Assembly (NCBI RefSeq): GCF_963676485.1
Contig: NZ_OY781114.1
Span: forward strand, 1,943,501 to 2,007,500
Direction: 5' to 3'
DNA: 64,000 nt
DNA from: an uncultured Cohaesibacter sp.
Lineage (GTDB): Bacteria > Pseudomonadota > Alphaproteobacteria > Rhizobiales > Cohaesibacteraceae
Numbering within the stretch: position 1 is the stretch's first letter; each line of letters opens with the position of its first letter. The translations under genes and the position numbers were made by a program. The notes below the pieces were generated by a model. It made no database searches. It saw only the letters and a program-made list of their open reading frames with translations, and was not told the origin of the DNA. Below, piece after piece: positions 41,275 to 59,177 of the stretch.

Positions 41275-42237
41275 CTACTCCGTTGCACTTGGGGCAAGGA
41301 TATCGTTGAGATCAACCGGCCCCTTGATCAGGTCGTTGGCGATCAGGAACTGCATGTCGTCTTGCATGCTGGCAAGGTCATTCTGATCGAGTTTTGTGGT
41401 GAATCCAGCCCAGTCGGCAAGCTTGGTGGCGTCCGCTATCGCGATATTCTGCTCTTTGGCACCAAGTGCGATGGCTTCTTCACGATGCGCGTTGATATAG
41501 CCTTGGGCTTCCTTATGCACCTTGATGACGCGGGCCACCAGATCGGGATGCCCGGCAACAAAGTCCGGACGCGCGGCAAGCACGAGCTTGGGCGTGACAA
41601 GGCCCTTGGCGGTGGTGATGACATGCGCGCCTTCTTCCTCGGACTTGATGACGAGGGAGGCGGCCAGCAGGGCGGCATCCACATTGCCGGACAGCATTGC
41701 AGCGCGGGCCTTGGGCAGATCCATGGAAACAAGCTTCACATCACCCGGCTGAAGTCCGGCTTTGGCGACAGCAGCCACCAACATCTGATGCAAAACAGTA
41801 CCCTTTGGACCGGCAACCGTTTTGCCCTTGAGTTCGGCAACGCTGGAAGGGCCATCTTTGGCGGCGACCAGGGCAAAGGTTTCGGATGGGCGGGATACCG
41901 CGGAGATGATCTTGATCGGGTTGCCTGCCGCATTGGCCATGAGCACAGAGGTTGAGTTCATCACCATACCGAAGTCGAGCGATCCGGCGGCCAGTGCCTG
42001 CGCCTGTTTGGCACCGGAAGTGATCTCGTGCCAATTGATGGTTATGCCGTCTTTTGCAAATTCCTTCTCAAGCCGGCCCTGCAGCTTGGTGACCATGACT
42101 TGCAGGTTGAAGGGCGAGGTCACATAGGAAACGTTGATTTCCTTGACCTCATCGGCAAAGGCTGATGCTGCGGACAAGGCAAGGCCAAAGGCCGCCGCCG
42201 CCAGGGCTGCGATACCGGTTTGAAGTGACTTCAGCAT
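41275..42237 (-). CDS. ABC transporter periplasmic substrate-binding protein (nitrate/sulfonate/taurine type)
   Basis: 320-residue precursor with a signal peptide (to about residue 28, ASAFADE). The mature part has the SsuA/TauA/NrtA fold: INVSYVTSPFNLQVMVTKLQ, a GSLDFGMVMNSTSVLMANAAG block, and the GKTVAGPKGTVLHQML hinge strand, in parts. The ligand cannot be predicted: sulfonates, taurine, nitrate or pyrimidine precursors are all carried by this family. ATG at 42237 overlaps the ATPase end by 7 bases. Confidence 0.85.
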   Translation of the reverse strand: MLKSLQTGIAALAAAAFGLALSAASAFADEVKEINVSYVTSPFNLQVMVTKLQGRLEKEFAKDGITINWHEITSGAKQAQALAAGSLDFGMVMNSTSVLMANAAGNPIKIISAVSRPSETFALVAAKDGPSSVAELKGKTVAGPKGTVLHQMLVAAVAKAGLQPGDVKLVSMDLPKARAAMLSGNVDAALLAASLVIKSEEEGAHVITTAKGLVTPKLVLAARPDFVAGHPDLVARVIKVHKEAQGYINAHREEAIALGAKEQNIAIADATKLADWAGFTTKLDQNDLASMQDDMQFLIANDLIKGPVDLNDILAPSATE

Positions 42238-43055
42238 GCGCTGACTCCTCCGTTTATAGGGTTGGTTGAATGCGATTGGAACGCGCTGCTTTCGCGATGG
42301 CTGACCAGTTCGCGTAAATGGCGCTGGATGGAGCGGATTGCCTCTCCGTCAAGATCGCGAGGGCGCGGGAGGGGGATCGGGACATCCTCTTGTATCTGGC
42401 CATGGGCCATGACCACCACGCGATCAGCCAGCTTGACGGCTTCTTCCAGATCGTGGGTCACAAACAGGATTGTGCGAGGGCTCTTGGCCTGAATGGCCAT
42501 GAGCAGGTCATGCATGTCCGAGCGTGTCAGGGCATCAAGCGAGGCGAAGGGCTCATCCATCAGCAACAGGGCAGGGTCCTGCAGCAATGCACGCCCAAGA
42601 GCGGCCCGCTGGGCCATGCCCCCCGACAGGGCAGATGGTCTGCTTTCGGCAAATGTTGCCAGATCAAGCGCCGAAAGCATGTCCGCCACACGTGCGCGTT
42701 TTTCTGCCTTGTCGAGTGACTTTTTCGCCCTTAAGGCAAGCAGTAAATTCTGTTCCAGACTTGCCCATGGCAACAGGCGGTGATCCTGAAAGACGACGGC
42801 ACATTGTGCGGCAAGATCTGGGGGATGAATTCTCCCCACATCCGGCGCAACAAGGCCAGCAAGGCAATGCAGAAGCGTCGTCTTGCCGCATCCGGACCGC
42901 CCGATCAGCGCGACAATTTCATTGGGTGCAAGGCTGAGAGAAAGCTCATTGATGACCGGATGGCTCGCAAGCTTTGCCCCATTATCTGTGGCTTGCACAA
43001 AGCGCTTGCTCAGCCCCTTGATCTCAATCGGAGTGGTCGGGCTTCTCATGTCCAT
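42231..43055 (-). CDS. ABC transporter ATP-binding protein (SsuB/TauB type)
   Basis: 274 residues. Walker A GRSGCGKTTLLHCL, Q-loop CAVVFQDHRLLPW, signature LSGGMAQRAALGRAL, Walker B LLLMDEPFASLDALT, and the switch histidine in ILFVTHDLEEAVKL. These are all intact. The TauB-like H-R-L-L-P-W at the Q-loop is typical of this subfamily. The ATG at 43055 shares its A with the permease stop codon; a second ATG lies at 43049. Confidence 0.93.
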   Translation of the reverse strand: MDMRSPTTPIEIKGLSKRFVQATDNGAKLASHPVINELSLSLAPNEIVALIGRSGCGKTTLLHCLAGLVAPDVGRIHPPDLAAQCAVVFQDHRLLPWASLEQNLLLALRAKKSLDKAEKRARVADMLSALDLATFAESRPSALSGGMAQRAALGRALLQDPALLLMDEPFASLDALTRSDMHDLLMAIQAKSPRTILFVTHDLEEAVKLADRVVVMAHGQIQEDVPIPLPRPRDLDGEAIRSIQRHLRELVSHRESSAFQSHSTNPINGGVSAC

Positions 43056-43915
43056 CAGAAAATGCCTCCGAGCATATGCTGTCGATCATCGGTGGGAAGG
43101 AGGCGGCGGAAGATGGCATCAAGCGCCATACCTGTCACTGCGATGACGACGATGCCAACGAAGATCCGGTCTGTGCGCGCCAGTTGTTCGGAATCGAGAA
43201 TGAGATAGCCAAGCCCAGCGCTGGCGGCGATCAGCTCGGCGCCAACGAGTGCCCGCCAGGCATAGCCGAAGCCAAGCCGCAACCCAGTCGACAAGCCAGC
43301 GCTTGCTCCGGGCACAAGCACAAACCGAACGGTTTCAAGCTTACTGAGATTGAGGGTCTTGGCCATCTGTAAAAGCTTGGGCTCGACCGTTTGAAGGGCG
43401 GTCAAGGCCGAGAGATAGACGGGGAAGAAGCTGGCAAGGATGATGACCGCCAGTTTTGACCCTTCCCCAATGCCGAACCAGAGAATGAGCAAGGGAACCA
43501 ATGCCAGAGGTGGGATCACCCGGATTGCCTCAAAAGGCAAGAAAGTCATGCGCCGGACGAGCGGGAAGCGATAGTTTAGCGCTGCCAAGAGCAGGGCTGA
43601 AGCGCCAGACAAGGCAAAGCCTGCCAGCACCCGCATCAAGCTCACCTTAATATGTTCTGCGAGCAACCCCTTGCCCCATAGATCAACCGCGGCCGCCCAT
43701 ACCTCCAGAGGCGGGGGTAGAAGATAGGCGTTGAACCAGTTTCGTGTAGAGCCAAAGTGCCAAATAGCTATACCAAGAACCGGCAATGCCAGAACAGTCA
43801 CTAGGGCAAGAATTCTTTGCCTGGAAGCAAAGCCATTGAGGACGGGGAAGCTCATGAAGGGTAGGGCTTTTGATCGCGTGAACGGCTTGGTTCTGACAAA
43901 TGAGCCGCATTGCAT
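43055..43915 (-). CDS. ABC transporter permease (SsuC/TauC type)
   Basis: 286 residues with about six transmembrane helices. The EAA-type loop that contacts the ATPase is LLQMAKTLNLSKLETVRFVLVPGASAGLSTGLRLGFGYAWRALVGAELI, seen in parts (SAGLSTGLRLGFGYAW). First gene of the four-gene leftward operon. The start is uncertain: 43915 is the longest; an ATG at 43855 (MSFPVLN) is also possible; neither has a good ribosome-binding site. Confidence 0.88.
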   Translation of the reverse strand: MQCGSFVRTKPFTRSKALPFMSFPVLNGFASRQRILALVTVLALPVLGIAIWHFGSTRNWFNAYLLPPPLEVWAAAVDLWGKGLLAEHIKVSLMRVLAGFALSGASALLLAALNYRFPLVRRMTFLPFEAIRVIPPLALVPLLILWFGIGEGSKLAVIILASFFPVYLSALTALQTVEPKLLQMAKTLNLSKLETVRFVLVPGASAGLSTGLRLGFGYAWRALVGAELIAASAGLGYLILDSEQLARTDRIFVGIVVIAVTGMALDAIFRRLLPTDDRQHMLGGIF

Positions 43916-44355
43916 TAAAGTTGAGAATTTAACTCATGTATATACAAAATAATTCTTGAGTCAATTACTCAAAATTAAATTTGGACGATCCTGCTATGGT
44001 GCTCGCATCCCTATTTGGGCGCACAGGTTTACGCCCTGAACACACATCGCGTATGGGGGCTCTGATTGGCGTAGCCGTGTTGAAGAGGGATGACCAAAGC
44101 AGGCCAAGTTATGCCGCTTGGTGCTTCACAATGCTTCTGGTCGGATATGTCATGGCTATTTGATCCGAACCGCGCATGTGCAGGAAGGTAATCTGAAACC
44201 GGCCTATGGAAGGCTTTGATCCCAGTGCGGATTTCAGAGAAACCAGTCACCTATTCCGATATAATAGCTTCTATCCAATAGCGCTGGCTTATTGGGTAGA
44301 GGTCGCGACCAAGGTCTGGTTAGTCGCGACGCTCTTGGTGTCGTGCTGAGGAATT
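43916..44355. other. Intergenic region, no convincing gene
   Basis: 440 bases between the ABC operon promoter and the thiolase 3' end. A 60-codon frame at 43981-44163 has no site or family resemblance. 43920-43980 is AT-rich and probably promotes the ABC operon. Confidence 0.45.
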
Positions 44356-45564
44356 TCAGGAAATCCGGCGTAAAATAACAGCCGTTCCCATGCCGCCTCC
44401 GATGCAAAGAGAGGCAAGGCCGTAGTCAAGACCGTCTCGCAGCATGCCGTAAAGCAGGGTGGTTGTGATGCGGCCACCGGATGCGCCCAACGGATGTCCG
44501 AGTGCAATGGCCCCGCCAGTCACATTGGTTTTGTCTTCAAACCAGCTCATGGGCACATCATGATCCTTGCTGAGACCCTTCATGACGGCAAGTGATTGCG
44601 CTGCAAATGCTTCGTTAAGCTCGAGCCGTTGCATGCTTTCCAGTTTCATGTCTGCGCGTGACAGGGCTTGGGCAATGGCGGGGACTGGGCCATATCCCAT
44701 GATGGCGGGATCGACACCGCCTTGACCATAGCTGACAAGCTCTGCCAACGGTGTGAGGTTATGTGCTTTGACAGCATCTTCTGACGCGAGAACAAATGCG
44801 ACACCGCCGTCATTGATGCCCGAAGCATTGCCTGCTGTCACCGTTCCTTCTGGCTTGAAGGCGGGCTTGAGCTTGGCCAATCCTTCCATCGAAGCATCGG
44901 CACGCGGGAATTCGTCGCGTTTGAAAATCAATGTCTGTTTGCGGCTTTTGACCTCAACAGGGGTGATCTCGTCGTCAAACAGGCCTTCTTGAACCGCAGC
45001 ATAGGCACGCTGCTGGCTTTTGAGCGCAAAAGCGTCCTGCTCCTTGCGGGAAATGTCGAATTTCTCGGCAAGGTTTTCTGCTGTGATGCCCATGTGATAA
45101 TTGTTGAAGACGTCGGTTAGGCCATCGACGACCATGGTGTCGGTCAAGGACTGAGGGCCCATCTTGTGCCCCGAGCGGCTCGATCCCGGCAAGGCGAAGG
45201 GTGCCTGCGACATGCATTCCATGCCAGCCGCAACTGCCAACCCTGCATCTCCTGCCTTGATATGAGAGGCGGCTTCCATGATGGTTTTCATGCCGCTGCC
45301 ACAAATCATGTTGACGGTATACGCAGGAACTGTTTCAGGAATGCCTGCATAGATGGCTGCCTGCCGACCTGGTCCCATACCTTGGTTTGCGCCAAGCACG
45401 TTGCCAACGATCACCTCATCAAGAAGGGCCGGATTGACTTTGGCTTGGTCCAGAGCAGAGGCGATGGCTGCTGCGCCGAGGCGTGCTGCTGGAACGCTGG
45501 AGAGAGAGCCAAGAAAACTGCCCATTGCTGTGCGTTTGGCCCCTACGATAAAGACTTTTGTCAT
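44356..45564 (-). CDS. phaA: Acetyl-CoA C-acetyltransferase (biosynthetic thiolase)
   Basis: Condenses two acetyl-CoA to acetoacetyl-CoA. 402 residues. Catalytic residues visible: C88 in [11 protein letters not shown]357 in [10 protein letters not shown] and C387 in SLCIGGGMG, matching the C89/H348/C378 set of Zoogloea thiolase. Followed on the same strand, upstream by 10 bases, by the reductase gene, the phaB-phaA pairing used for PHB and for butyrate-type pathways. The gene name is by role; a separate atoB-like function is possible. Confidence 0.93.
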
Positions 45565-45574
45565 GATTGGCCCT

Positions 45575-46309
45575 TCAGATTACCAGACCGCCGTCGATCT
45601 TCAGCACTTGGCCTGTGATGAAGCGCGCACGATCACTGGCCAGGAACAGAACGCCTTGTGCGATGTCTTCTGCTTCGCCCATGTGGCCAAGAGGGGTTTT
45701 GCTTTCCATGTAGGAGATGACTTTTTCCGGAAGATCCTTGGTCATTGGCGTCTTGATGAAGCCGGGAGCGACGCAGTTGGCGCGGACCTGAGCGCCCTTG
45801 CGAGAGAATTCCTTGGCCCAGCTCTTGGTCATGGCAATGACACCAGCCTTGGTGGCTGCATAGTTGGTCTGGCCGATGTTGCCATCGGTGCCGACAACGG
45901 AGGACATGGTAACAATGGATCCGGAGCCATTTGCGATCATCACCGGGGAGACCGCTTGAGTCATGTTGAAGACGCCCTTCAGATTGACGTCGATGACCAT
46001 ATCCCAGTCCTTCTCACTCATGCGATCAAGCAGGTTGTCGCGCGTGACGCCTGCATTGTTGACAAGGACGTCTATTTTTTCGTGCTCTTGTTTGATTTTC
46101 TCAATGAAGGCGTGAATGGCATCACGATCACACACGTTGAGTTCTACTGCCTCGATGTTTGAAAATCTGTCTTTGTAGTCGCTCATAGCGTCCAGATTCA
46201 TGTCGCAGGCAAATACTTTTGCCGCACCTTCTGTTGCGAATGTTTCAACAGTACAACGGCCGATGCCCTGTGCTCCGCCAGTTACAATGCACACCTTGTC
46301 TTTAAGCAT
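45575..46309 (-). CDS. phaB: Acetoacetyl-CoA reductase (SDR family)
   Basis: 244 residues, short-chain dehydrogenase. NAD(P) motif TGGAQGIG at 10-17; NNAGVTRD; catalytic S137, Y150, K154 (NYAATKAG). FabG and PhaB are alike in sequence. The position directly in front of a thiolase favours acetoacetyl-CoA reductase giving (R)-3-hydroxybutyryl-CoA, the isomer needed by the R-specific hydratase found nearby. Aspartate 36 (ACDMN) after the second strand would favour NADH, a detail that suits fermentation but is only an inference. First gene of the leftward pair. Confidence 0.87.
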   Translation of the reverse strand: MLKDKVCIVTGGAQGIGRCTVETFATEGAAKVFACDMNLDAMSDYKDRFSNIEAVELNVCDRDAIHAFIEKIKQEHEKIDVLVNNAGVTRDNLLDRMSEKDWDMVIDVNLKGVFNMTQAVSPVMIANGSGSIVTMSSVVGTDGNIGQTNYAATKAGVIAMTKSWAKEFSRKGAQVRANCVAPGFIKTPMTKDLPEKVISYMESKTPLGHMGEAEDIAQGVLFLASDRARFITGQVLKIDGGLVI

Positions 46310-46608
46310 GATTCCACCTTCTATTCTTGTTTGGTTTGCGACATTTGCATGCGAACATGTCGTTGGTCAGAATTATTGACATGAAAGGACGCGAATGATT
46401 ATAGACAGCTAGGCAAAACTCTAATGAAGATATGGGATTGTCTTTTGCTCGCCTGACTCGTTATGGAGCGAGGCCTATGGGCAGGCCGCCGGGCCTGGAG
46501 CGCACGCTCCGTGTGGCTATCGACTATTCGCAACCGGTTTTTCCCGTTTTGGTTTCACTGCAGTGCTATCTATCTATGGGTACGCATGTGAGAAAGAAAG
46601 CTCTAACC
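46310..46608. other. Divergent region between phaB and the LysR gene
   Basis: 299 bases. It contains GC-rich near-repeats around GGCCTATGGGCAGGCC (46471-46486) and the promoters of both directions. The open frame of the LysR gene extends into it from 46432, but that part reads as leader. Confidence 0.45.
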
Positions 46609-47532
46609 ATGCTCGACAAGATGGTTTATTTTCTGAATGTTGTTCGTACCGGCTCCTTTTCCGATGCGGCGCGGCTTTATGGTATCTCCGCCAGTGCAGG
46701 CAGCCGCTGGATCATCGAATTGGAGGAAAAGCTTGGCGTGAGCCTTCTGAAGCGGTCGACCCGCAAAGTGGTTGCGACCGAAGCTGGGCAGCATCTCTAT
46801 GATCGTTTCAGCGGGGTCAACGGGGAAATTGAGGATATCTTTTCGGAGCTGCAGCGGTTTGGTCAGGAAGAGCGCGGCACCATCGTGGTTGCCTCCACGC
46901 CGCTCTTTGCCAAGCATTTTCTTGCCCGGATCGTGGGGGAATATCTGCTTGAGCATCCCCGCGTAAATTTTCGCATCATCGAGACGGCCTATGACGTCGA
47001 TATGGTGGAGAATGTGGACTTCTTCATTCGCGCCAACGCCACCTATGACGGGTTCCAAGAGAAGGATAGCCTTCTTATTCGCCGTTCCCTGTTGCGCTGT
47101 CCATTGGTTGCCTGTTGTTCCCCGCAATATGCCGAGCGCTATGGCATTCCGCATATGCCTGAGGAATTGGCAAAGCATAGCTGCCTGTATGCTCACACGT
47201 TGGTGGGGGGGAACAAATGGGTGTTCGAAAACAAGGGTGATTATACCACGGTAAAAATCTCTCGTACGGTAGAGGTCGAGGATAGTGAGATCATCAAGTC
47301 CATCGCCCTTACTGGTGGCGGGATTGCTTATTTGCCGCTCAGCATCTTGCGCAAGGAGCTGGCGGACGGGCAGTTGATTTCCATTCTTGGTGATTATCTG
47401 GACGCGGAATTCGAGCTCAACCTCTATTTTCGGCAGCGGCGGCAGATGCCGGTCCTTTGCACCAATTTCAAGGATTATCTCATTCAAAGAACGAAGGAAA
47501 TGGCGGAAGGGGACGTAAACTGGTCCCGGTAA
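46609..47532 (+). CDS. LysR family transcriptional regulator
   Basis: 307 residues from the ATG at 46609, the normal family length. N-terminal helix-turn-helix MVYFLNVVRTGSFSDAARLYGISASAGSRW in part (GSFSDAARLYG), then LGVSLLKRSTRKVVATEAGQ. The remainder is a LysR substrate-binding domain (IVVASTPLFAKHFLARIV, GGGIAYLPLSIL). It lies between the leftward phaB-phaA pair and the rightward CoA-transferase, hydratase and FabV genes, so it is placed to regulate both. Effector unknown; an acyl-CoA intermediate would be natural. Confidence 0.88.
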   Translation: MLDKMVYFLNVVRTGSFSDAARLYGISASAGSRWIIELEEKLGVSLLKRSTRKVVATEAGQHLYDRFSGVNGEIEDIFSELQRFGQEERGTIVVASTPLFAKHFLARIVGEYLLEHPRVNFRIIETAYDVDMVENVDFFIRANATYDGFQEKDSLLIRRSLLRCPLVACCSPQYAERYGIPHMPEELAKHSCLYAHTLVGGNKWVFENKGDYTTVKISRTVEVEDSEIIKSIALTGGGIAYLPLSILRKELADGQLISILGDYLDAEFELNLYFRQRRQMPVLCTNFKDYLIQRTKEMAEGDVNWSR

Positions 47533-47689
47533 TCTCTATTCTTGCGCAAAAGCCACTTATTGTCCCATTTCAGCAATTCTGTTTTGGATGATTGTCTGTT
47601 TCATCCCAAAGAAAACTTTCTTAGCATTGACCCATGAAATATGGGCATATGTGTGTTTTTACTTGTGCCCTAAATAAAGGGTCAAAAAA

Positions 47690-49258
47690 ATGCAAGTAAA
47701 AATTCTGACCCCAGAACAAGCTGCTGATCTTATCGAAGACAGAGACCGTGTTATTCTGGGAGGATTTATTGGCGCTGTTGTTCCTGAAGCAATAGAAATA
47801 GCTTTGAAAAACCGGTATCTGAGCACGGGAAGCCCTAGAAATATTGAGTTATATTTCACTGCGGGGCAGGGCGACGGCAAAGATCGAGCCAATAACCATC
47901 TCGCTCAAGAAGGCTTGGTGAAGCGTGTGATCGGTGGTCACTGGGGCCTTATCCCGAAATTGCAGGATCTGGCAAACCGTGATTTGATCGAGGCTTATAA
48001 TCTGCCGCAAGGTGTGATCGCCCATTTGATCCGAGATAGTGCTGCGGGAAAACCGGGTACGTTGACCCATGTCGGTCTGGGAACATTCGTTGATCCGCGC
48101 ATCGAAGGTGGCAAGATCAACACGATCACCAATGAGGACATCGTGTCCCTCATGAAGGTGGGAGGCAAGGACTATCTGTTCTATAAAAGGCTTGAAGCCA
48201 ATGTGGCGTTGTTGCGCGGCACCACTGCTGATAAGCATGGCAACATCACGATGGAAGATGAGTGCCTGACGCTCGAAAATCTGGCGGCGGCCCAGCTGGT
48301 CTCCAATCTTGGCGGCAAGGTCATTGTTCAGGTCAAGCGGCTGGTTGAGCATGGGGAGCTCGATCCCCAACAGGTTCGCATTCCGGGCATTCTGGTGGAT
48401 GCCATCGTGATCGCAAGCGGTGACGAACATCGGCAGACCTTTGCCGAGAGTTACAATCCGGCTTATTGCGGGCGCGGCAAGCGCGGGGAAAAGACCACGG
48501 CTCCGCGGCCGCTGGATGTCAAGAAGATCATTGCCCGGCGCGCTGCGCAGCAATTGCGCGAAGGGGCTATTCTCAACTATGGCATTGGTGTGCCTGAGGT
48601 CATCGCAGAGGTGACCGATGAAGAGGGCGTGACCGACAAGATGATTGCCACGGTGGAGCCGGGCGCCATTGGCGGCACGCCTGCTGGCGGGCAGAGCTTT
48701 GGTGCGGCGTCTTTCCCCGATGCAATCATAACGCAGGATCAGATGTTCGATTTCTATGACGGTGGTGGCGTGGATCAGGCGTTTCTCGGGTTGGCCGAGG
48801 CCGATGCGTTTGGCAATATCAACGTGTCTCGTTTCGGGCCAACCATTGCCGGGTGTGGCGGATTTATCAACATTACGCAGAATGCCAAGGAGGTCTATTT
48901 TTGTGGCACCTTCACTGCGGCCGGACTCAAATGCCAGGCCGGAGACGGCAAGCTGACAATCATAAAAGAAGGCAAGGTGAAGAAGTTTCTCAAGTCTGTG
49001 CAGCAGATCACATTTTCGGGGGACCAGGCGCGCCAGAATGGGAAGCAGGTTTTCTATTTCACCGAACGGGCTGTGTTCCAGCTGGTTGAAGATGGCATTG
49101 AGCTGATTGAGATTGCCCCCGGTGTTGACCTTGAAACGGATGTGCTTGGGCAGATGGATTTCAAGCCCAAAATCAGCCCCGATCTCAAGGAAATGGATGC
49201 CCACCTGTTTGTTGACGCTCCTCTCGGTCTCACCCTTCGTCCCCCAGTATCCTTATAA
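47690..49258 (+). CDS. Acyl-CoA:acetate/propionate CoA-transferase (YdiF/Pct type)
   Basis: 522 residues, a family I CoA-transferase with both halves fused. Catalytic glutamate E323 in ATVEPGAIGG; the oxyanion/CoA glycine stretch is GGTPAGGQSFGAA. N-terminal half: DRVILGGFIGAVVPEAIEIAL in part. Members exchange CoA between acetate, propionate, butyrate and acetoacetate. With the neighbouring genes it could release butyrate from butyryl-CoA using acetate, recovering acetyl-CoA. 157 bases after the LysR gene; the hydratase follows. Confidence 0.9.
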   Translation: MQVKILTPEQAADLIEDRDRVILGGFIGAVVPEAIEIALKNRYLSTGSPRNIELYFTAGQGDGKDRANNHLAQEGLVKRVIGGHWGLIPKLQDLANRDLIEAYNLPQGVIAHLIRDSAAGKPGTLTHVGLGTFVDPRIEGGKINTITNEDIVSLMKVGGKDYLFYKRLEANVALLRGTTADKHGNITMEDECLTLENLAAAQLVSNLGGKVIVQVKRLVEHGELDPQQVRIPGILVDAIVIASGDEHRQTFAESYNPAYCGRGKRGEKTTAPRPLDVKKIIARRAAQQLREGAILNYGIGVPEVIAEVTDEEGVTDKMIATVEPGAIGGTPAGGQSFGAASFPDAIITQDQMFDFYDGGGVDQAFLGLAEADAFGNINVSRFGPTIAGCGGFINITQNAKEVYFCGTFTAAGLKCQAGDGKLTIIKEGKVKKFLKSVQQITFSGDQARQNGKQVFYFTERAVFQLVEDGIELIEIAPGVDLETDVLGQMDFKPKISPDLKEMDAHLFVDAPLGLTLRPPVSL

Positions 49259-49351
49259 GGTTATCTGGTAATCGGGAAACCCCGCTTCTTTCTTCTCCTC
49301 CTTATGGGAGCGGGGCCCCGATATTCCCTTCACCAATGTGGGAGGCTCCCT

Positions 49352-49771
49352 ATGAGTTACACCTTGGAACAACTATCTATAGGCCAGTCAGCGTTCTTCG
49401 AGAAAACGATCTCAGAAGCCGATATTCAAATGTTTTGCGGCATCAGCGGTGATATCAATCCGGTGCATGTCAGCGCGTTGGCTGCAGAAAAAAGTGTATT
49501 TGGCAAACGCGTTGCGCACGGCATTCTTGTTTCCGGTCTGACGTCAGCGGTTCTGGGCATGCAACTGCCTGGTCCGGGGACGATTTATCTGGGGCAAGAG
49601 TTGCGTTTTGTGGCTCCTGTTTATATCGGAGATACGATCCGCGCTGAAGTTGAAGTGGTTGAAATCATCCCCGAGAAGAAGCTCGTCAAGCTTAAGACGA
49701 CAAGTACCAATCAAGATGGTAAGGTCGTCATTTCTGGTGTCGCAACCGTCCGTCCCCCGCAATCCTCTTGA
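49352..49771 (+). CDS. phaJ: (R)-specific enoyl-CoA hydratase, MaoC family
   Basis: 139 residues with the hydratase 2 motif SGDINPVHV, giving D34 and H39 as catalytic residues, and the hot-dog fold strands (FVAPVYIGDTIRAEVEVVEI). ATG at 49352 follows GGGAGG by 7 bases. It interconverts (R)-3-hydroxybutyryl-CoA and crotonyl-CoA, and so links the phaB product to the FabV substrate. Same direction as the CoA-transferase before it and fabV 57 bases after it. Confidence 0.9.
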   Translation: MSYTLEQLSIGQSAFFEKTISEADIQMFCGISGDINPVHVSALAAEKSVFGKRVAHGILVSGLTSAVLGMQLPGPGTIYLGQELRFVAPVYIGDTIRAEVEVVEIIPEKKLVKLKTTSTNQDGKVVISGVATVRPPQSS

Positions 49772-49828
49772 GGGTTCACCCAAACACCAAGGCCAATTCC
49801 TCTTTTCCCCGTACATCAGAGAATATCA

Positions 49829-51025
49829 ATGATCATTCAACCCATCATCAAAGGTCAGGTGGCCAAATCCTGCCATCCCATCGGCTGTGGCAAGGCGGTC
49901 GCAGACCAAATTGACTATGTTCGTCAAGCCCGGCAAATAGAGGCTGGCCCCAAGAAGGTGCTTGTCTTGGGGGCTTCCTCCGGTTTTGGTCTGGCTTCGC
50001 GTATCTCCCTGGCCTTTGGCGGCGCCAATGCCGACACGATCGGCGTTGCATTCGAACGCGGGCCGTCCGAGAGAGGCGTCGGAACCGCTGGCTGGTACAA
50101 CCTCATTCAATTCAAGCAAGAGGCCGAAAAACAGGGCCTCGTTGCCAAGAATTTCGTTGGCGATGCCTTCTCTCCTGATATGCGCCGGAGCGTTGCCGAT
50201 TACATCAAGACCGAGTTCGGCGGTTCTGTTGATCTGGTGGTCTATTCGCTGGCAACTGGCGTGCGCCCCGATCCCAAAACCGGAAAGCTGATCCGCTCCT
50301 CAATCAAGACTGTCGGGGAACCGATGACCGGTTATACCGTCAATCTGGAGAAGGATTGTCTGGAGGAAAGTGTGCTGGAAGCGGCGAGCGAGCAGGAAAT
50401 AGCCGACACCGTGAAGGTCATGGGTGGGGAAGACTGGGAAGAATGGATCGATTTCCTGTCTGGTGAAGGGGTTCTGGCCAAGGGATGCCAGACCCTTGCC
50501 TATTCCTATATTGGCTCTGACATCACCTACCAGATCTATCACGAAGGCACGCTTGGTCACGCCAAGACGCATTTGCAGGCAACGGCTGATAAACTCGACG
50601 CCAAGCTCAAGGCCGTTGGCGGGCAGGCTCATGTCGCCGTATGCAAAGCTTTGATTACCAAGGCAAGCGTGTTTATTCCGGCTTTCTCACCCTATATTCT
50701 GGCGCTCTTCAAGGTGATGAAGGATATGGGGCTGCATGAAGGATGTATCGAACAGATGCAGCGACTTTATGCCGATTGTATCTACCAAGCCGATGGTGAA
50801 GTTCGCGTCGATGAGCATCGCCTTGTGCGGGTTGATGATTGGGAACTGCGTGAAGATGTGCAGGAAAAGGTCCGAGCCATTCTGGACAAGATGACGCCTG
50901 ACAATTTCAAGACGTTGGGTGACTATGAAGGCTATAAGACCGACTTCATGAAACTGAACGGTTTTGGGCTTGATCATGTAGATTATGCCCAGGATGTCGA
51001 TCTGGAAAGTTTAAGAAAAGGCTGA
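49829..51025 (+). CDS. fabV: Trans-2-enoyl-CoA/ACP reductase, NADH-dependent
   Basis: 398 residues, the FabV/Ter family. NADH-binding start KVLVLGASSGFGLASRIS, the family block GPSERGVGTAGWYN, and the catalytic Tyr-x8-Lys pair as Y237 and K246 (YHEGTLGHAK). FabV is an enoyl-ACP reductase in some bacteria and reduces crotonyl-CoA to butyryl-CoA as Ter in others. In this cluster the crotonyl-CoA role is more likely; a housekeeping fatty-acid role cannot be excluded. Confidence 0.93.
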   Translation: MIIQPIIKGQVAKSCHPIGCGKAVADQIDYVRQARQIEAGPKKVLVLGASSGFGLASRISLAFGGANADTIGVAFERGPSERGVGTAGWYNLIQFKQEAEKQGLVAKNFVGDAFSPDMRRSVADYIKTEFGGSVDLVVYSLATGVRPDPKTGKLIRSSIKTVGEPMTGYTVNLEKDCLEESVLEAASEQEIADTVKVMGGEDWEEWIDFLSGEGVLAKGCQTLAYSYIGSDITYQIYHEGTLGHAKTHLQATADKLDAKLKAVGGQAHVAVCKALITKASVFIPAFSPYILALFKVMKDMGLHEGCIEQMQRLYADCIYQADGEVRVDEHRLVRVDDWELREDVQEKVRAILDKMTPDNFKTLGDYEGYKTDFMKLNGFGLDHVDYAQDVDLESLRKG

Positions 51026-51061
51026 TTGCTTCACGATTGATGAGGCTGTTTGAAAGACAAT

Positions 51062-51093
51062 AAGGATCCAGTACTTTGTGCTGGGTCCTTTCT
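51062..51093 (+). terminator. Terminator of fabV
   Basis: AAGGATCCAG pairs with CTGGGTCCTT (one wobble/mismatch) and is followed by TCTTG. Confidence 0.65.
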
Positions 51094-51236
51094 TGCGTTC
51101 TGTTTCATAATTTCTTGGTTTTATTTTGCTTTTTACATTACACCTTCCCAAAATCGGGAAAATGAACTGTATGAAAACAGGCTATCCTCCCTCATGAATT
51201 TAAAAAAGCGGAATCAAGCCTAGGGAGGTTCCTTAA

Positions 51237-52439
51237 ATGCTTCGAAAGCCAATCATTGAATTTGTTGTCTTCACGACATATGCGTTGTTCGCCATGTCGT
51301 GGGTTGCTGGCAACATGATGACCAAGGACATCATGTCCTACTATCACGTCGATGGCGTTGCTGCGGCGACCTGGATGACGAATGCGATTACGATAGCGAA
51401 AATCATCGGTAACCTGATCGCGGCTTGGTTCCTGACCAAGCTTGGCCCGAAAAAAGCTTTTGCCTTTGCTTCTGTCCTGATTTTTCTGGGCATTCTTGGG
51501 GCTTTTGCGTCCAACTATCCGATGTATGTCGCAACACGCCTGATTATGGGATTTGGCGGTGCTTTCGTGATCGTTTATATGAACCCGGTCGTGATGAACT
51601 ATTTCACATCTGCAGAATTGCCGATCGTGAATGGCATCAACGCAGCCGCGTTCAATATGGGCAACCTGCTGGCTATTCTCTTCACCGGCGCCTTGCTCTC
51701 CAAGCTCGGATCCTGGCAGAATGTGGTAATCGGCATTTCTGTTGTCAGTTTTGTTCTGTTGATCCTGTGGATGCTGTTCTCAGAAGATTTCTCTCTCTCC
51801 GGCAAGGCAGAAGATGGTAAGGCGGTTGAGGCCTATACCTTCAAGCAAGGCGTCAAGGAACCGGTTAACTGGTTGTTGCCATTTGCTTATTCTGGAATTT
51901 TGTTCTGCTATATTTCCGTATTCGCCATCTTTCCTATGGTCCCGAATTTTGCAGCGGAAGCAAAATACCTTTCGTCCATCATGATCACTGCGGGCATGGT
52001 CGGCACGGTTGTTGGCATTATCGTTGCCAAACGCTTCACCCTGCGTGTTCCGGTTTTGCGCTGGTGTGGTTTGTTTATGACAATCTTTGCCGCGATCATG
52101 GCTTTTACCAGCAATGCAACCATCGCCTATGTCTGCGCTTTCATTGCCGGCTTCCTGATGTTTGTGCCGATGACCAGCCTTGTGACGCTGCCATATGAAT
52201 TGCCCGGCATGACTCCGGGGCGCATCGCAGTTGTGTTCGCCATGTTCTGGTCCTTTTCCTATCTGGTTGAAACGATCCTGATGTATATCTCCGGCGTTAT
52301 CGCTGACCGCACGGGGGACATTATGATTTCAGCCATTTTTGCAATTGTCTGCTCTGCGACTCTCTTTGTCGCCAGCTTCCTGTTGCCTGAGCCGAGTAAG
52401 AAGAAGGCTCAAATGGAAGCTGCTGGAAAAACCGCGTAA
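51237..52439 (+). CDS. Major facilitator superfamily transporter
   Basis: 400 residues with twelve predicted transmembrane helices. MFS marks: the loop 2-3 segment WFLTKLGPKKAFAF and RLIMGFGGAFVIVYMNPVVM. No substrate subfamily stands out. A 15-base gap to the esterase gene means they are probably one transcript. Located beside the butyrate-type cluster but separated from it by a terminator, so a link to short-chain acids is only a possibility. ATG at 51237, after GGGAGG. Confidence 0.85.
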   Translation: MLRKPIIEFVVFTTYALFAMSWVAGNMMTKDIMSYYHVDGVAAATWMTNAITIAKIIGNLIAAWFLTKLGPKKAFAFASVLIFLGILGAFASNYPMYVATRLIMGFGGAFVIVYMNPVVMNYFTSAELPIVNGINAAAFNMGNLLAILFTGALLSKLGSWQNVVIGISVVSFVLLILWMLFSEDFSLSGKAEDGKAVEAYTFKQGVKEPVNWLLPFAYSGILFCYISVFAIFPMVPNFAAEAKYLSSIMITAGMVGTVVGIIVAKRFTLRVPVLRWCGLFMTIFAAIMAFTSNATIAYVCAFIAGFLMFVPMTSLVTLPYELPGMTPGRIAVVFAMFWSFSYLVETILMYISGVIADRTGDIMISAIFAIVCSATLFVASFLLPEPSKKKAQMEAAGKTA

Positions 52440-52454
52440 GCAAGAGGTGATGAA

Positions 52455-53390
52455 ATGCGAGAAGTCAGTCCTAAACTTGTTGCCTATCTGGATGATCTCA
52501 ACACGCTTGTTGCCAAGCTGGTCGCTGGAGGGTTCAAGCCAAACGCCACCAACGCGCGCGAGGGGCTAGCCAACTTAACCAAGACCTATGTAACCACGAT
52601 CCCCGATGTGGCCCTCATTCAGGATGATATTATTCCGGCAGAAGGCTATCAGGTGCCGGTTCGCATCTACAATCCGGCTCCAGAGGAAGCGTTGCCGGTG
52701 CTGATCAATTATCATGGTGGCGGCCACATGGCTGGGAGCGTGACGGTTTATGATCCAATCTGTCGCAAGATTGCCTTGGCAACCAGACATATCGTGATCG
52801 CACCAGACTATCGGCTGGCTCCCGAGTGTCCTTATCCGGCTGGCGTCAATGATGCTTACGCCACACTGAAGGGCGCATTTGGTGTGCTTGACGGGCGAGG
52901 CATGAACTATAAGCGCTCAATTTCCATAGCAGGGGATTCGGGGGGCGGCGCCCTGTGTGGAGCGGTCGCGGGCAAGGCGCAGTATGACTATAGCGTCAAA
53001 ATCGCCAAGCAATTCCTGATCTATCCGAGTTTGGATTACACCATGGATTCCAGGTCCATGGAAGAAAACGCGGTTGGGTATTTGCTGCAGGCTGGCAAGG
53101 TTGCGTGGTATTTCGACAATTATTTCAAGAATGGCGAATGTCGCAAATCTGCTTCTCCACTCTATGGTGATTTTACGGACAAATTGCCAGAAACCTTTGT
53201 TGTCACCGCAGAATTCTGTCCGCTGAGGGATGAGGGCAAGGCCTATTGTGAGAAATTGGCTGCAGCTGGTGTGCCTGTCGAGCATCTCAATATGGACAGC
53301 ATGATTCATACCTTCATGAATATGGAAGATCTGGTCAAGGAAGAATGCGAGCTTGTTTATTCGCGCATGTCGGCATTTCTGAATAAATAG
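52455..53390 (+). CDS. Alpha/beta hydrolase, hormone-sensitive-lipase (family IV) esterase
   Basis: 311 residues. HGGG oxyanion motif at 87-90 (NYHGGGHMAGS), nucleophile S162 in GDSGGG, and an acid and histidine near the C-terminus (FVVTAEFCPLRDEG, MIHTFM). The layout is that of family IV bacterial esterases. Cytoplasmic. ATG at 52455 follows CAAGAGGTGA. Co-transcribed with the transporter at 51237, which suggests that the transported compound is an ester or its product. Confidence 0.9.
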   Translation: MREVSPKLVAYLDDLNTLVAKLVAGGFKPNATNAREGLANLTKTYVTTIPDVALIQDDIIPAEGYQVPVRIYNPAPEEALPVLINYHGGGHMAGSVTVYDPICRKIALATRHIVIAPDYRLAPECPYPAGVNDAYATLKGAFGVLDGRGMNYKRSISIAGDSGGGALCGAVAGKAQYDYSVKIAKQFLIYPSLDYTMDSRSMEENAVGYLLQAGKVAWYFDNYFKNGECRKSASPLYGDFTDKLPETFVVTAEFCPLRDEGKAYCEKLAAAGVPVEHLNMDSMIHTFMNMEDLVKEECELVYSRMSAFLNK

Positions 53391-53780
53391 CTTTCATAAA
53401 TTGATGCATCAAAAAGGGGCTCAATTGAGCCCCTTTTTATTATGTCTATCGTCCACGGCTGTGGATTTGAAAATGCTTATCTTTAAAGAATAAACATGTG
53501 AGGGCAGGCAGCCAATTTCGCCCGGTTGCAATCACGTAAACCCACAGATAAACCCACAGACTTTCAAAGCGCCAGGTTGGGCGCGTTTGGGTCTGCGTCA
53601 GATGGACGCTGCCTTGAGATGGTGCGAAATGTCGGAGGGCTTTGTATGCTGCCAGCAGAAGCGCCTTCGGATTAATCCCGTATTGCTACCCATTATCGGT
53701 AGAACCGTTTCACCCATCCGGTGTATAAGGGAAGCAGATATGCTTGGAATAATCAGGCTTTATCAAATTGGAGAAGAAAA
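53391..53780. other. Intergenic region before glpR
   Basis: 390 bases. It starts with the perfect terminator of the esterase gene. Further right are two adjacent copies of TAAACCCACAGA (53537-53548 and 53549-53560). No gene seen. Confidence 0.55.
53411..53438. terminator. Terminator of the transporter/esterase operon
   Basis: A perfect 28-base palindrome: AAAAAGGGGCTCAA with TTGAGCCCCTTTTT; T runs on both strands. Confidence 0.88.
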
Positions 53781-54581
53781 ATGGTAACCGGCCAGAATGC
53801 CAGCTTGCCCCAGAAGGGACTCAACCAAAGACAAGAAAAGATCGTTGAGATTGCCCGGTCTGAAGGCTTTGTTGGCATTGAGAAACTGGCGGCTCTTTTC
53901 GATATCACGCCGCAGACCATTCGGCGGGATATTGCTCTCTTGTGTGATCATGGCATTTTACGTCGGTATCACGGGGGAGCGAGCCTGATATCCAACACGC
54001 GCAACGTCGACTATACCGAACGGCGCGAGGTGATGAAGGATGAGAAAGCCAGAATCGGTCAAATGGTTGCCGCGCATATTCCTGATGGCGCATCACTTTT
54101 TCTCAATATAGGCACGACAACCGAAGCGGTGGCAGATGCCTTGCTCAATCACAAGAATCTCAATGTGGTGACGAACAATATCAATGTCGCCGCCAAGCTG
54201 AGCCAGCAGGAAAGCTTTGACGTTTCTATCGCGCCGGGGCATGTGCGCCCGCGTGATCTGGCCGTGATCGGTGAAGCGACCATCGATTTCATCAAGCAGT
54301 TCAAGGTTGATTTCGGTGTCATCGGCATCTCCGGCATCGATGAAGACGGAACGTTGCTGGATTTTGACTATCGGGAGGTTCGTGTCGCCCAAACGATCAT
54401 AGAGAATTCGCGCACCACTTTTCTGGCGACCGATCATACAAAGTTCGGGCGGCGCGCCATGGTCAAACTCGGTAATATCACAGATCTTGATGGTCTGTTT
54501 CTGGATCGTTTGCCCCCAGCGCCCTATGACGAGCTGATCAAATCGTCCAGTGTGACCGCGCATCTGGTATCTGATGACTAA
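53781..54581 (+). CDS. glpR: DeoR-family repressor of the glycerol-3-phosphate regulon
   Basis: 266 residues from the ATG at 53781 (GGAG 7 bases upstream). DeoR helix-turn-helix: EKLAALFDITPQTIRRDIALLCDHGILRRYHGGA in part (FDITPQTIRRDI); DeoR_C sensor domain after residue 80 (FLNIGTTTEAVADALL). In E. coli GlpR binds glycerol-3-phosphate and represses glpD, glpFK. Here it is directly upstream of glpD-glpF-glpK, supporting the same role. TTCG/CGAA half-sites occur in the glpR-glpD gap. Confidence 0.92.
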   Translation: MVTGQNASLPQKGLNQRQEKIVEIARSEGFVGIEKLAALFDITPQTIRRDIALLCDHGILRRYHGGASLISNTRNVDYTERREVMKDEKARIGQMVAAHIPDGASLFLNIGTTTEAVADALLNHKNLNVVTNNINVAAKLSQQESFDVSIAPGHVRPRDLAVIGEATIDFIKQFKVDFGVIGISGIDEDGTLLDFDYREVRVAQTIIENSRTTFLATDHTKFGRRAMVKLGNITDLDGLFLDRLPPAPYDELIKSSSVTAHLVSDD

Positions 54582-55018
54582 GGGCGTCTGAACCAATTCT
54601 TCTTTCTGGTGCTATCGACCTTTTATGTTTGGTGGTGCGAAAATGTTCGTTTTTTTTCAAACGAAAATTTCACACTTGGTATTTTTACGCCCTCCTTTCG
54701 AATAACTCCTTCTTCTTTGATCGAGAGCCCCACATTAACTTTCCAATCAAGTCCCTTCTTTTTGTGCCTTTCTCTTAAGAAAACCCGCTTTTTGGCTTAA
54801 CTCCTAAGTTTTTGTTTCAATGCTGAAATTTTAAGGATTTTTGTCACTTCTGCACAGAGCATTCGAATGATCTTATTCTTTCGTTTAATGTTGCGAAAAT
54901 ACTCAATTGAACATTATCCTACGAAATGCTATATATAACGAAAGAAAAGATACAAAAACGAATATCGTGGGTTCTGCCTAACAATACCAGACCTTGTCGG
55001 TTTATTCGGGAGGAAGAG
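54582..55018. promoter_or_regulatory. glpR-glpD intergenic region with GlpR-like half-sites
   Basis: 437 bases, AT-rich. CGAA/TTCG elements like those of E. coli GlpR operators occur as CGAAaatgTTCG (54639-54650), CTTTCGTT (54878-54885) paired with AACGAAAG (54937-54944), and TTCG-CGAA at 54880-54897. No gene is seen. Probable glpD operator region. Confidence 0.5.
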
Positions 55019-56635
55019 ATGAGATCCGAAACTCTGAAAAAATTGCATGACGACACCCCATTTGATGTGCTTGTGATTGGTGGTGGCGCGACAGGGTGTG
55101 GCATTGCACTGGATGCGGCAACACGCGGCCTGAGAACGGCTCTTGTTGAACGCTATGACTTCTGCGAAGGCACGTCCAGCCGCTGCACCAAACTGGTGCA
55201 TGGTGGTGTGCGTTATCTTGAGGCTGCCGTCAAAAGACTCGACAAGGAACAGTATAATCTGGTGCGCGAAGCACTGCATGAACGCGGTGCCTTTCTGCGC
55301 AATGCGCCTCATCTGTCCAACCGGTTGCCGTTGATTACGCCGGTCTATTCCTGGTGGCAGGTTCCCTATCTTTTTGCTGGCCTCAAGATGTATGACATTC
55401 TGTCTGGCAAGATGAATATCGGCCACAGCAAGATCATCAGCGCCAAGGAAGCCATACGGCGCTTCCCGATGCTGCATGCCAAGGGTTTGAAGGCCTGTAT
55501 TCTCTATTATGATGGCCAGTTTGTTGACGTGCGCATGGCCATTTCCATTGCCATGACAGCTGAACGAGCTGGTGCCGTTCTGGCCAACCATGTAGAAGTT
55601 GTCTCTCTTCTGCATGATGAAGCGAAGAATGTAGCCGGCGCGCGGGTTCGTGATGCCTATACCGGCGAAGAATGGGATGTCAAAGCCAAGAAGGTCATCA
55701 ATGCGACCGGCCCGTTTGCAGATGGCGTTCGCAAAATGGACGATGCGGCAGCAAAGCCCATTCTGAAGGTCAGCTCCGGCATTCACATGATCCTTGATGC
55801 CAACTTCGTGCCTCCGGATGGCGGTTTGTTGATCCCGAAAACCGATGATGGTCGCGTGCTGTTCATTCTGCCATGGCAGGGACAGGCTCTTGTCGGTACC
55901 ACGGACAATGAATGCAAGGTGGAATCCCATCCTGAAGTTTCTCCGGAAGATATCAGCTATCTGTTGAGTTATGTGCGTCGTTATTTCGATATTGATGTGA
56001 CCGAAAAGGATGTGAAGTCTGCCTGGAGCGGTATCCGGCCTCTGGTTTTCAATCCAAATGCCAAAGACACCTCGCAGCTGGCTCGTGACCATGTGATTAT
56101 TGAAGACGCTTCCGGCCTCGTTACCATTTCGGGTGGCAAATGGACGACCTACCGTCTGATGGCCGAGCAGGCCGTGGATACGGTTGTCAAAAGCGGTGCC
56201 TTCGGATCGGTGGGCGGTAGCCGCACGCATGACATGAAAGTCATTGGGGCAGAAGCTTTCTCTCCAGATCAGGCTGGCGTGATCGCCAAAAACTATGATC
56301 TCGATGATGATGTTGCCAAGCACCTGAATGAAGCATATGGCGATCAGGCAGAACATGTTGCCCGCATCGCCAAGGATAAGGGTATGAACCAACGCCTGCA
56401 TCCTGACTACGCCTTTATTGAGGCTGAAGTGCCCTATGCCATTGAAAAGGAAGCTGCAGTTTCTGCATCTGACTTCTTGTGCGGGCGCATCACTCTTACA
56501 TTGATCGATAAAAATGCGGCTGCGTCTGCTGCTCCGAGAGTTGTGGCTCTTATGGCCGAACTTTTGGGCTGGGATCAAGCGCGCATCACGAATGAAACTC
56601 AGGCCGTTATGAAGCGCATCGAGGTTGCGTTCTGA
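55019..56635 (+). CDS. glpD: Aerobic glycerol-3-phosphate dehydrogenase
   Basis: FAD enzyme at the inner membrane; oxidises glycerol-3-phosphate to dihydroxyacetone phosphate and passes electrons to quinone. 538 residues from the ATG at 55019 (GGAGGAAGAG). FAD motif FDVLVIGGGATGCGIALDAATRG in part; GTSSRCTKLVHGGVRYLE and ISGGKWTTYRLMAEQ are family marks. It precedes glpF and glpK; a gap of 265 bases follows. Confidence 0.95.
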   Translation: MRSETLKKLHDDTPFDVLVIGGGATGCGIALDAATRGLRTALVERYDFCEGTSSRCTKLVHGGVRYLEAAVKRLDKEQYNLVREALHERGAFLRNAPHLSNRLPLITPVYSWWQVPYLFAGLKMYDILSGKMNIGHSKIISAKEAIRRFPMLHAKGLKACILYYDGQFVDVRMAISIAMTAERAGAVLANHVEVVSLLHDEAKNVAGARVRDAYTGEEWDVKAKKVINATGPFADGVRKMDDAAAKPILKVSSGIHMILDANFVPPDGGLLIPKTDDGRVLFILPWQGQALVGTTDNECKVESHPEVSPEDISYLLSYVRRYFDIDVTEKDVKSAWSGIRPLVFNPNAKDTSQLARDHVIIEDASGLVTISGGKWTTYRLMAEQAVDTVVKSGAFGSVGGSRTHDMKVIGAEAFSPDQAGVIAKNYDLDDDVAKHLNEAYGDQAEHVARIAKDKGMNQRLHPDYAFIEAEVPYAIEKEAAVSASDFLCGRITLTLIDKNAAASAAPRVVALMAELLGWDQARITNETQAVMKRIEVAF

Positions 56636-56900
56636 TTGGAGTGATTTTCAAATGAAGTTTCAGCACACGACTAGATTTGCCTCTGTATAGGGTTGAGCCG
56701 TTTGCTGTTCTCTTTCTTCGGAGTTCCGGGGTTGGGCAGGTATTTTGGAAACACCTGCTTTTCTCCGTCCAAGGAAAGAAATCCTTCGTCTGCGCTTAGG
56801 CATTGTTTGGGAGGATAATGCCAGCCAGCCTGCCGGGGGGAAGGAAAAGAGCGACGCTTAGCGCTCTTGACAGTTTGCAGAAGTACATGTGGAGGAAGAA

Positions 56901-57608: not shown

Positions 57609-57629
57609 TTGTGAGAGCGAAAAACATAA

Positions 57630-59177
<1,548 letters not shown>

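Follow-up and report, generated by a model that had tools for sequence, protein, structure and literature searches.

Gene content and limits of the block

The window analysed here is a stretch of 64,000 nucleotides on contig NZ_OY781114.1 of an uncultured Cohaesibacter sp., whose genome comprises 5.08 Mb on two contigs. At positions 44356–53390 it carries a block of eight genes, coding for a thiolase, a FabG-type NAD reductase, a LysR-type regulator, a YdiF-type CoA-transferase, a PhaJ hydratase, a FabV/TER reductase, a major facilitator superfamily (MFS) transporter and an esterase of the hormone-sensitive lipase (HSL) type (Table 1). An earlier note on this DNA had read the first six as a complete gene set for making butyrate from acetyl-CoA in an alphaproteobacterium. 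The host was rightly placed, the genus being Cohaesibacter, and all six genes are open frames where the note had put them, but the transporter and esterase genes that follow fabV had been missed.

Table 1. Genes and putative control elements of the block (window coordinates)
Feature	Position	Strand	Basis
Acetyl-CoA acetyltransferase (thiolase)	44356..45564	-	Thiolase_N + Thiolase_C; TIGR01930 463 vs. 240.55 bits
(R)-3-oxoacyl-CoA reductase / 3-hydroxybutyryl-CoA dehydrogenase, FabG kind, NAD(H) type	45575..46309	-	PDB matches 4nbu, 4nbt; Asp36
Putative lysR promoter, TTGACA-N18-TATAGA	46376..46405	+	Aligned in three Cohaesibacter genomes; by eye
LysR-type regulator	46609..47532	+	HTH_1 + LysR_substrate
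Putative LysR operator, ATTRTCCC-N6-GCAAT	47559..47577	+	Conserved upstream of CoA-transferase
Fused acyl-CoA:carboxylate CoA-transferase, YdiF/FadX kind	47690..49258	+	YdiF 2ahu, E = 4.6e-142
(R)-specific enoyl-CoA hydratase (PhaJ/MaoC)	49352..49771	+	MaoC domain; PDB 5cpg, 1iq6
NADH-dependent trans-2-enoyl reductase, FabV/TER family	49829..51025	+	PF12241, PF12242, PF07055
Inverted repeat TTCCC-N6-GGGAA upstream of MFS gene	51145..51160	.	Exact in G000 and G012; one change in G014
MFS transporter, probable importer	51237..52439	+	MFS_1
HSL-family esterase	52455..53390	+	Abhydrolase_3

The window genome (G000) was compared with two congeners that carry the same block (G012 and G014; other G numbers denote sampled genomes). 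DNA homology with both begins at 44348 and stops at 53360, interrupted only in the reductase-lysR stretch, so the block is sharply bounded. Its genes are under purifying selection (dN/dS 0.03–0.08, with dS near saturation and, for fabV, saturated). Because the homology limits match the block, selection is purifying and the gene order is kept in another class (see below), we regard the grouping as more than chance. Base composition gave no sign of a recent transfer, the GC content being 52.0% in the block and 52.4% in the rest of the window. Between G012 and G014, identity is 91.6% over the thiolase-reductase half with its flank (L062 14260-18674, L063 1567-5986) and 77% over the half from lysR to the esterase gene, which suggests recombination.

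Enzymes, transporter and esterase

The Cys, His and Cys motifs of the thiolase, which we take to be catalytic, are kept in all 16 aligned copies. The neighbouring reductase is present as the earlier note had said, but the name PhaB given to it there is a loose one. Among the best 25 of 236 models, this short-chain dehydrogenase/reductase (SDR) fails the cut-offs for acetoacetyl-CoA reductase and PhaB (TIGR01829, 229.6 vs. 302.1; NF042966, 199.2 vs. 436), falls slightly below that of TIGR01830 (291.6 vs. 297.75) and passes that of the FabG subfamily NF009466 (241.7 vs. 222). By curated cut-offs, it is predicted to be FabG-like rather than PhaB. An Asp after strand beta-2, which in SDRs favours NAD(H), is found in 18 of 19 aligned cluster reductases (Asp36 here; the Ilyobacter row is gapped at that point) and is absent from the window genome's own canonical PhaB, an SDR that passes TIGR01829 (366.2) and adjoins what by eye is a PhaR-like gene. 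The nearest solved relatives of the block reductase, 4nbu and 4nbt, are tabulated among NAD-bound dehydrogenases in an excerpt of PMC5264612. A polyhydroxybutyrate (PHB) biosynthesis operon was ruled out: the block has no PHA synthase gene, and both the above-cut-off phaB and the genome's sole PhaC_N match (class I, at G000:C1:4572721) are located elsewhere.

The fused CoA-transferase stays under the FadX model cut-off (414.6 vs. 750 bits). Its motif TVEPGA[IV]GG, with the presumably catalytic Glu323, is present in 21 of the 22 rows; the exception, from the two-subunit Ilyobacter enzyme, is not aligned at that point. Another locus of the window genome (L231 4553-8602) has a two-subunit CoA-transferase adjoining an SDR and, by eye, a 3-hydroxyacyl-CoA-dehydrogenase-like gene and a transporter. 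For PhaJ, homologues make 49352 the most likely start. No NCBIfam model passes its cut-off on this protein; the best PDB matches (5cpg and 1iq6) are (R)-specific enoyl-CoA hydratases. In the sequence GDxNPxH, which we take to be the PhaJ/MaoC motif, Asp and His are kept in 14 of 14 copies, and Gly in all but the two fusobacterial ones.

The MFS protein likewise passes no NCBIfam cut-off; its gene occurs in 11 of the 13 closest loci of the second family described below. The esterase scores under the LipP1 model cut-off (257.1 vs. 350) and keeps HGGG, GDS[GA]GG, Asp and His in all 17 copies. No signal peptide was visible in it by eye.

The FabV/TER enzyme

The fabV product, a member of the FabV/TER family (EC 1.3.1.9 / 1.3.1.44), clears both NCBIfam FabV cut-offs (582.9 vs. 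403 and 508.3 vs. 400 bits). It is 51.5% identical to TER of Clostridium acetobutylicum (CA_C0462), 48.1% to TER of Treponema denticola (TdTER) and 49.7–50.4% to two FabV enzymes, and among PDB chains C. acetobutylicum TER (4eue) scores highest, at 411.6 bits, with FabV 5xi0 near-tied at 410.3. In alignment it keeps the catalytic pair Y237-x8-K246 and the NADH-type Glu76, features in common with both TERs. The Glu selecting NADH over NADPH is E75 in Spirochaeta Ter, according to a passage of PMC6652007, and the X. oryzae FabV uses NADH to reduce crotonyl-CoA (kcat 1335 per min, Km 293 µM; excerpt of PMC3198815).

A 29-row tree puts a 100/99 split between the cluster enzymes with their relatives and C. 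acetobutylicum TER on one side and the two FabV structures, TdTER and the spirochaete rows on the other. We treat the tree as supportive only, because the C. acetobutylicum row is long-branched and of odd composition; TdTER, moreover, lies on the FabV side of the split. The position corresponding to TdTER residue 287, presumably in the pocket, is Phe in all seven cluster copies of the tree and in C. acetobutylicum TER, Leu in seven second-locus Cohaesibacter FabVs, and Met in the two FabV structures. As proof of TER function this Phe is weak, since it is also found in FabV of Photobacterium DA100, around which no other block gene lies within the 25 kb examined. The window enzyme is a candidate TER.

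The second-locus FabV is carried by eight Cohaesibacter genomes (L064 9355-10551; L065, L066, L068-L072), in seven of them 1-2 kb from a FabI-like SDR. At L064, the locus examined gene by gene, it adjoins genes resembling those for histidine utilisation. The second FabV of G012 has an internal TAG and no FabI-like SDR nearby, and the window genome retains the FabI-like SDR of that locus (L021/L073) without the FabV.

FabV might instead be an extra, triclosan-tolerant enoyl-ACP reductase for fatty-acid synthesis that lies in a catabolic cluster by chance. The passed family cut-offs and the near tie between TER and FabV structures are compatible with this, and FabV functions in an E. coli fabI(Ts) strain (excerpt of PMC3198815). 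Relatives from Treponema metagenome-assembled genomes (L057, L059, L060, L061) lie, judging from starts of open reading frames (ORFs), within apparent fatty-acid synthesis clusters, so the family can also serve lipid synthesis. However, two FabI genes of the window genome score above the FabI cut-offs, which rules out FabV as the only enoyl-ACP reductase, the circumstance that, together with essentiality, the earlier note had named as fatal to its proposal. The position of FabV within the block is also the same in both classes, and Cetobacterium fills it with acyl-CoA dehydrogenase-EtfBA, which would not suit fatty-acid synthesis. We therefore consider a fatty-acid role very improbable.

Conservation of the block in two classes

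The full block, with a CoA-transferase of at least 83% identity and a common gene order, is found in three of 18 Cohaesibacter genomes (two of the 18 are less than 91% complete); in the other genomes of the genus no CoA-transferase exceeds 39% over its full length. Among 385 sampled genomes of the class, the one with a FabV match is the window's own, and 10 of 101 nearer relatives, nine of them Cohaesibacter, have strong FabV matches. Sampling of the phylum (398 genomes) gave 60 with a CoA-transferase match at E ≤ 1e-80; identity reached 62% or more in four besides the window genome, all of one genus. As a control, the surroundings of 11 CoA-transferases of 50–57% identity contained no other block gene beyond one 23% SDR and ABC ATPases.

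The family of that genus belongs to the same phylum but another class; the two large replicons in several of its genomes make it most likely gammaproteobacterial and Vibrionaceae-like, and we refer to its loci as gamma loci. Megablast searches with three of these loci returned two distant matches (Pseudoalteromonas dnaK, 75.6%; Vibrio campbellii, 71.6%), one short match (Vibrio alginolyticus, 2% of the query) and otherwise nothing. A match to the CoA-transferase at E ≤ 1e-220 occurs in 13 of its 329 genomes. All eight genes stand in the common order at seven of these 13 loci (G790, G851, G896, G971, G1066, G1092 and G1147), and as the loci examined were those 13, at least seven of the 329 genomes have a complete block. 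The cluster that the earlier note had described is thus kept in relatives, both in the genus and in this second family. The MFS protein of the G851 block is 46% identical to that of the window, and the blocks of G967 and G1020 reach contig ends. An IS-like insertion in the G896 block, seen by eye, is an apparent IS3-type transposase pair between the MFS and esterase genes (L210 13251-14401). In five gamma blocks the esterase gene is followed by one for a 420-aa protein (L164 14443-15705; L209, L248, L250, L254), with a 40% relative beyond the thiolase in L211; this protein has no Pfam or PDB match, and calling it an outer-membrane protein would be a guess.

Within the genus of G790, a related CoA-transferase (E ≤ 1e-150) is found in 23 of 118 genomes, at 24 loci. 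An NAD-type reductase lies near it at 21 of the 24, and FabV only at the four with 68–70% CoA-transferase identity (G790, G875, G896 and G851). G934 and G856 have CoA-transferase, reductase, esterase and LysR, without thiolase, PhaJ, FabV or MFS. Judging from ORF starts, 15 of the 24 loci adjoin a TRAP transporter, nearly all of these also a two-component system. The best match of the one TRAP binding protein tested is a ketoacid binder, and the one adjoining sensor tested resembles MctS, under the cut-off (422 vs. 700 bits). Because of the reductase pairing, the TRAP neighbours and the restriction of FabV to four of 24 loci, the CoA-transferase-reductase core looks catabolic for an imported monocarboxylate. 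FabV and PhaJ look like an add-on to that core.

Such reduced loci would also suit a respiratory island that imports and hydrolyses a hydroxyacyl ester, transfers CoA to the acid, and oxidises and thiolytically cleaves the product to acetyl-CoA, with PhaJ and FabV handling crotonate or diverting some of the flow to butyryl-CoA as a side step. Loci lacking FabV add either thiolase and TRAP genes or the esterase to the CoA-transferase and reductase, and at two gamma loci (L218 and L219) the pair adjoins apparent valine degradation genes, as read from ORF starts. Aerobic oxidation would have no need of FabV, however, and the enzyme is encoded in all three Cohaesibacter blocks and together with 11 of the 13 closest CoA-transferases of the gamma loci. 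We find a respiratory island quite unlikely.

A conserved operator-like site

The most likely start of lysR is 46609, since a homologue begins at ORF residue 60. The putative operator was found 129–143 bp upstream of the CoA-transferase gene, as an exact match, at 13 of 21 loci including all three Cohaesibacter blocks; G1010 and G1020 differ from it at one position. The remaining six of the 21 (G1119, G934, G856, G774, G768 and G559) have no exact site, and in the first three of these a scan at one mismatch found none either. With up to one mismatch, the site also stands before the reductase gene at eight of the 11 scanned gamma loci that have one (G790, G896, G1092, G1147, G1066, G851, G971 and G975, not G1119, G934 or G856) and before the MFS gene at nine of the 11 that have an MFS gene (G875, G896, G1092, G1147, G1066, G967, G971, G975 and G1010, not G790 or G851), so that in most gamma genomes the interval upstream of the MFS gene holds a LysR-type box.

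This recurrence before three genes in most gamma loci ties the transporter and esterase to the enzymes, and a single LysR protein plausibly controls three transcription units. The 64-kb window contains one exact operator match, which is also the sole match with fewer than two mismatches. The looser pattern with two mismatches occurs five times in the window against 3.66 expected, which is not above chance; the evidence for the operator is therefore its conservation across genomes.

Related clusters in Fusobacteria

Searching plasmid records for PhaJ brought up Ilyobacter polytropus and Cetobacterium somerae. By its annotation, Cetobacterium plasmid p2 has genes for a hydrolase, an MFS protein, a GntP permease, a fused CoA-transferase, a TetR regulator, thiolase, reductase, MaoC, acyl-CoA dehydrogenase, EtfB and EtfA. 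Six of these are homologous to the block, with identities to the window proteins of 58% (hydrolase), 35% (MFS), 54% (CoA-transferase), 57% (thiolase), 61% (SDR) and 53% (MaoC). The plasmid differs in its TetR, in the extra permease and in having acyl-CoA dehydrogenase-EtfB-EtfA in the place of FabV.

Ilyobacter plasmid pILYOP01 has a short-chain fatty-acid transporter, TetR, a two-subunit CoA-transferase, thiolase, reductase, MaoC, acyl-CoA dehydrogenase and EtfA, the gene table being incomplete between the last two. Like the block, it holds CoA-transferase, thiolase (59% identical), FabG-type reductase (51%) and MaoC hydratase (54%) together; unlike it, it has acyl-CoA dehydrogenase and Etf for FabV and TetR for LysR. 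By family and homology the block contains the Ilyobacter-type set, with CoA-transferase, 3-hydroxybutyryl-CoA dehydrogenase, hydratase and thiolase clustered, except that the acyl-CoA dehydrogenase with Etf is missing from it and FabV stands in that position. FabV thus occupies the place of the acyl-CoA dehydrogenase-Etf genes of the fusobacterial sets, taken here as Bcd-Etf. In this respect the earlier note was right: it had seen FabV as a substitute for flavin-linked Bcd/Etf, and an NADH-type FabV/TER does sit where other clusters have the dehydrogenase and Etf.

According to an excerpted description, I. polytropus makes butyrate from hydroxybutyrate or crotonate and none from glucose or fructose. 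We infer that the pILYOP01 cluster carries this 3-hydroxybutyrate/crotonate fermentation.

A probable route from imported hydroxybutyrate to butyrate

What suggests an imported C4 acid or ester as the substrate is the probable co-regulation of esterase and transporter, the presence of uptake systems next to related CoA-transferase-reductase modules and a homologous cluster in a known 3-hydroxybutyrate/crotonate fermenter. On balance we think it somewhat more probable than not that the block is a transferable island by which imported (R)-3-hydroxybutyrate, crotonate, or short esters or oligomers of these, are fermented. The MFS protein would import the hydroxybutyrate compound, the esterase would release the acid within the cell, and the CoA-transferase would charge it with CoA from butyryl-CoA or acetyl-CoA. 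The NAD-type reductase would then oxidise one part to acetoacetyl-CoA, for the thiolase to cleave to acetyl-CoA; from the other part PhaJ would remove water, giving crotonyl-CoA, which FabV/TER would reduce to butyryl-CoA with the NADH derived from the reductase. FabV would replace Bcd/Etf as the NADH sink, and LysR would turn on all units together. By known reactions this dismutation is NADH-balanced, with one NADH made by the reductase and one used by FabV. The net reaction would be 2 hydroxybutyrate to 2 acetate plus butyrate, for which an excerpt of PMC10096456 gives a dG0' of -59.34 kJ/mol.

The further proposal, that FabV/TER replaced Bcd-EtfAB in an island moving between Alpha- and Gammaproteobacteria, allowing natural 3-hydroxybutyrate/crotonate dismutation without Bcd-Etf and, for facultative marine bacteria, anaerobic life on breakdown products of the storage polymer PHB with release of butyrate, seems to us about evenly balanced.

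Genome context fits a facultative life style. The three PFL-family glycyl-radical enzyme genes of the window genome fit an anaerobic phase, and at least one such gene is present in 13 of 14 Cohaesibacter genomes tested from the set of 18. Ccr, of the ethylmalonyl-CoA pathway, scores above cut-off in five of five Cohaesibacter genomes tested and in none of three gamma genomes; where it is present, crotonyl-CoA has another possible exit, to ethylmalonyl-CoA.

Several points weigh against an imported C4 substrate and its dismutation. Some gamma loci carry only part of the block: G875 is limited to CoA-transferase-PhaJ-FabV-MFS-esterase, with neither thiolase nor reductase nearby, and G1010 combines LysR, CoA-transferase, FabV, MFS and esterase but has no thiolase, reductase or PhaJ close to them. 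FabV is missing from G975, where esterase, MFS, CoA-transferase and reductase are present, and from G1119, so that 11 of the 13 closest gamma loci carry it. FabG-type reductases often work reductively, the window FabV resembles TER hardly more than it resembles an enoyl-ACP reductase, and the esterase might have a different ester as its substrate. The Ilyobacter CoA-transferase has two subunits, and no esterase or MFS homologue was found in the 24 kb examined there. In Cohaesibacter, the site before the CoA-transferase gene is clear and the two additional sites are not. We also rejected low-oxygen control of the FNR type, as no such site is conserved among the window, G012 and G014: G014 has one motif 22 bp before the reductase gene, and in G012 one lies within the end of fabV and a loose one precedes the CoA-transferase gene; the window has none at these places.

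The same enzymes could also run from sugar- or pyruvate-derived acetyl-CoA to butyryl-CoA, with a CoA-transferase swap with acetate freeing butyrate and the pathway serving as an NADH sink. Every enzyme is present, both reductases look NADH-linked, the genome has its three PFL-family genes, and the FabV/TER step is regarded as practically irreversible. An engineered PhaAB-PhaJ-Ter route gave butanol in C. thermocellum, according to an excerpt of PMC6652007. However, this reading does not account for the co-regulated esterase and MFS gene, Ilyobacter, despite its related genes, makes no butyrate from glucose or fructose in the excerpted description, and the CoA-transferase-reductase core adjoins uptake systems in many related loci. 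A start at acetyl-CoA, which the earlier note had stated as the path, is a serious rival, though less likely than dismutation of imported hydroxybutyrate, crotonate or an ester. Enzyme names alone do not establish an acetyl-CoA-to-butyrate fermentation.

The clostridial Thl-Hbd-Crt-Bcd/Etf pathway has the intermediates of the block route save for the stereochemistry of 3-hydroxybutyryl-CoA, and differs in following the (S) rather than the (R) route and in using Bcd/Etf rather than FabV. The engineered PhaA-PhaB-PhaJ-Ter C4 pathway, as described in the excerpt of PMC6652007, has four reaction types in common with the block but ends in butanol, whereas the block is natural, LysR-linked and equipped with CoA-transferase, MFS protein and esterase. 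In titles and abstract openings of the openly licensed PMC literature, we found no report of a natural thiolase-PhaB-PhaJ-FabV cluster, and none on butyrate, fermentation or PHB in Cohaesibacter.

If dismutation is indeed what the block does, the FabV/TER bypass of Bcd/Etf used by engineers occurs naturally in a co-regulated, transferable fermentation island, and genes can be named that could allow facultative marine bacteria to ferment the breakdown products of PHB, with release of butyrate. CoA-transferase-PhaJ-FabV-MFS-esterase would then be a marker for such islands, and the direction of flux through a two-way gene set would become directly testable.

Genes flanking the block

Neither set of neighbouring genes belongs to the block, since the homology shared with G012 and G014 is confined to 44348–53360. 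Directly upstream, ABC-transporter genes with an NMT1-type binding protein (41275-43915) are missing from the congeners' blocks. Downstream, the glp-like genes (53721-59177) comprise a DeoR/GlpR-like regulator, a glycerol-3-phosphate dehydrogenase-like gene and a glycerol kinase.

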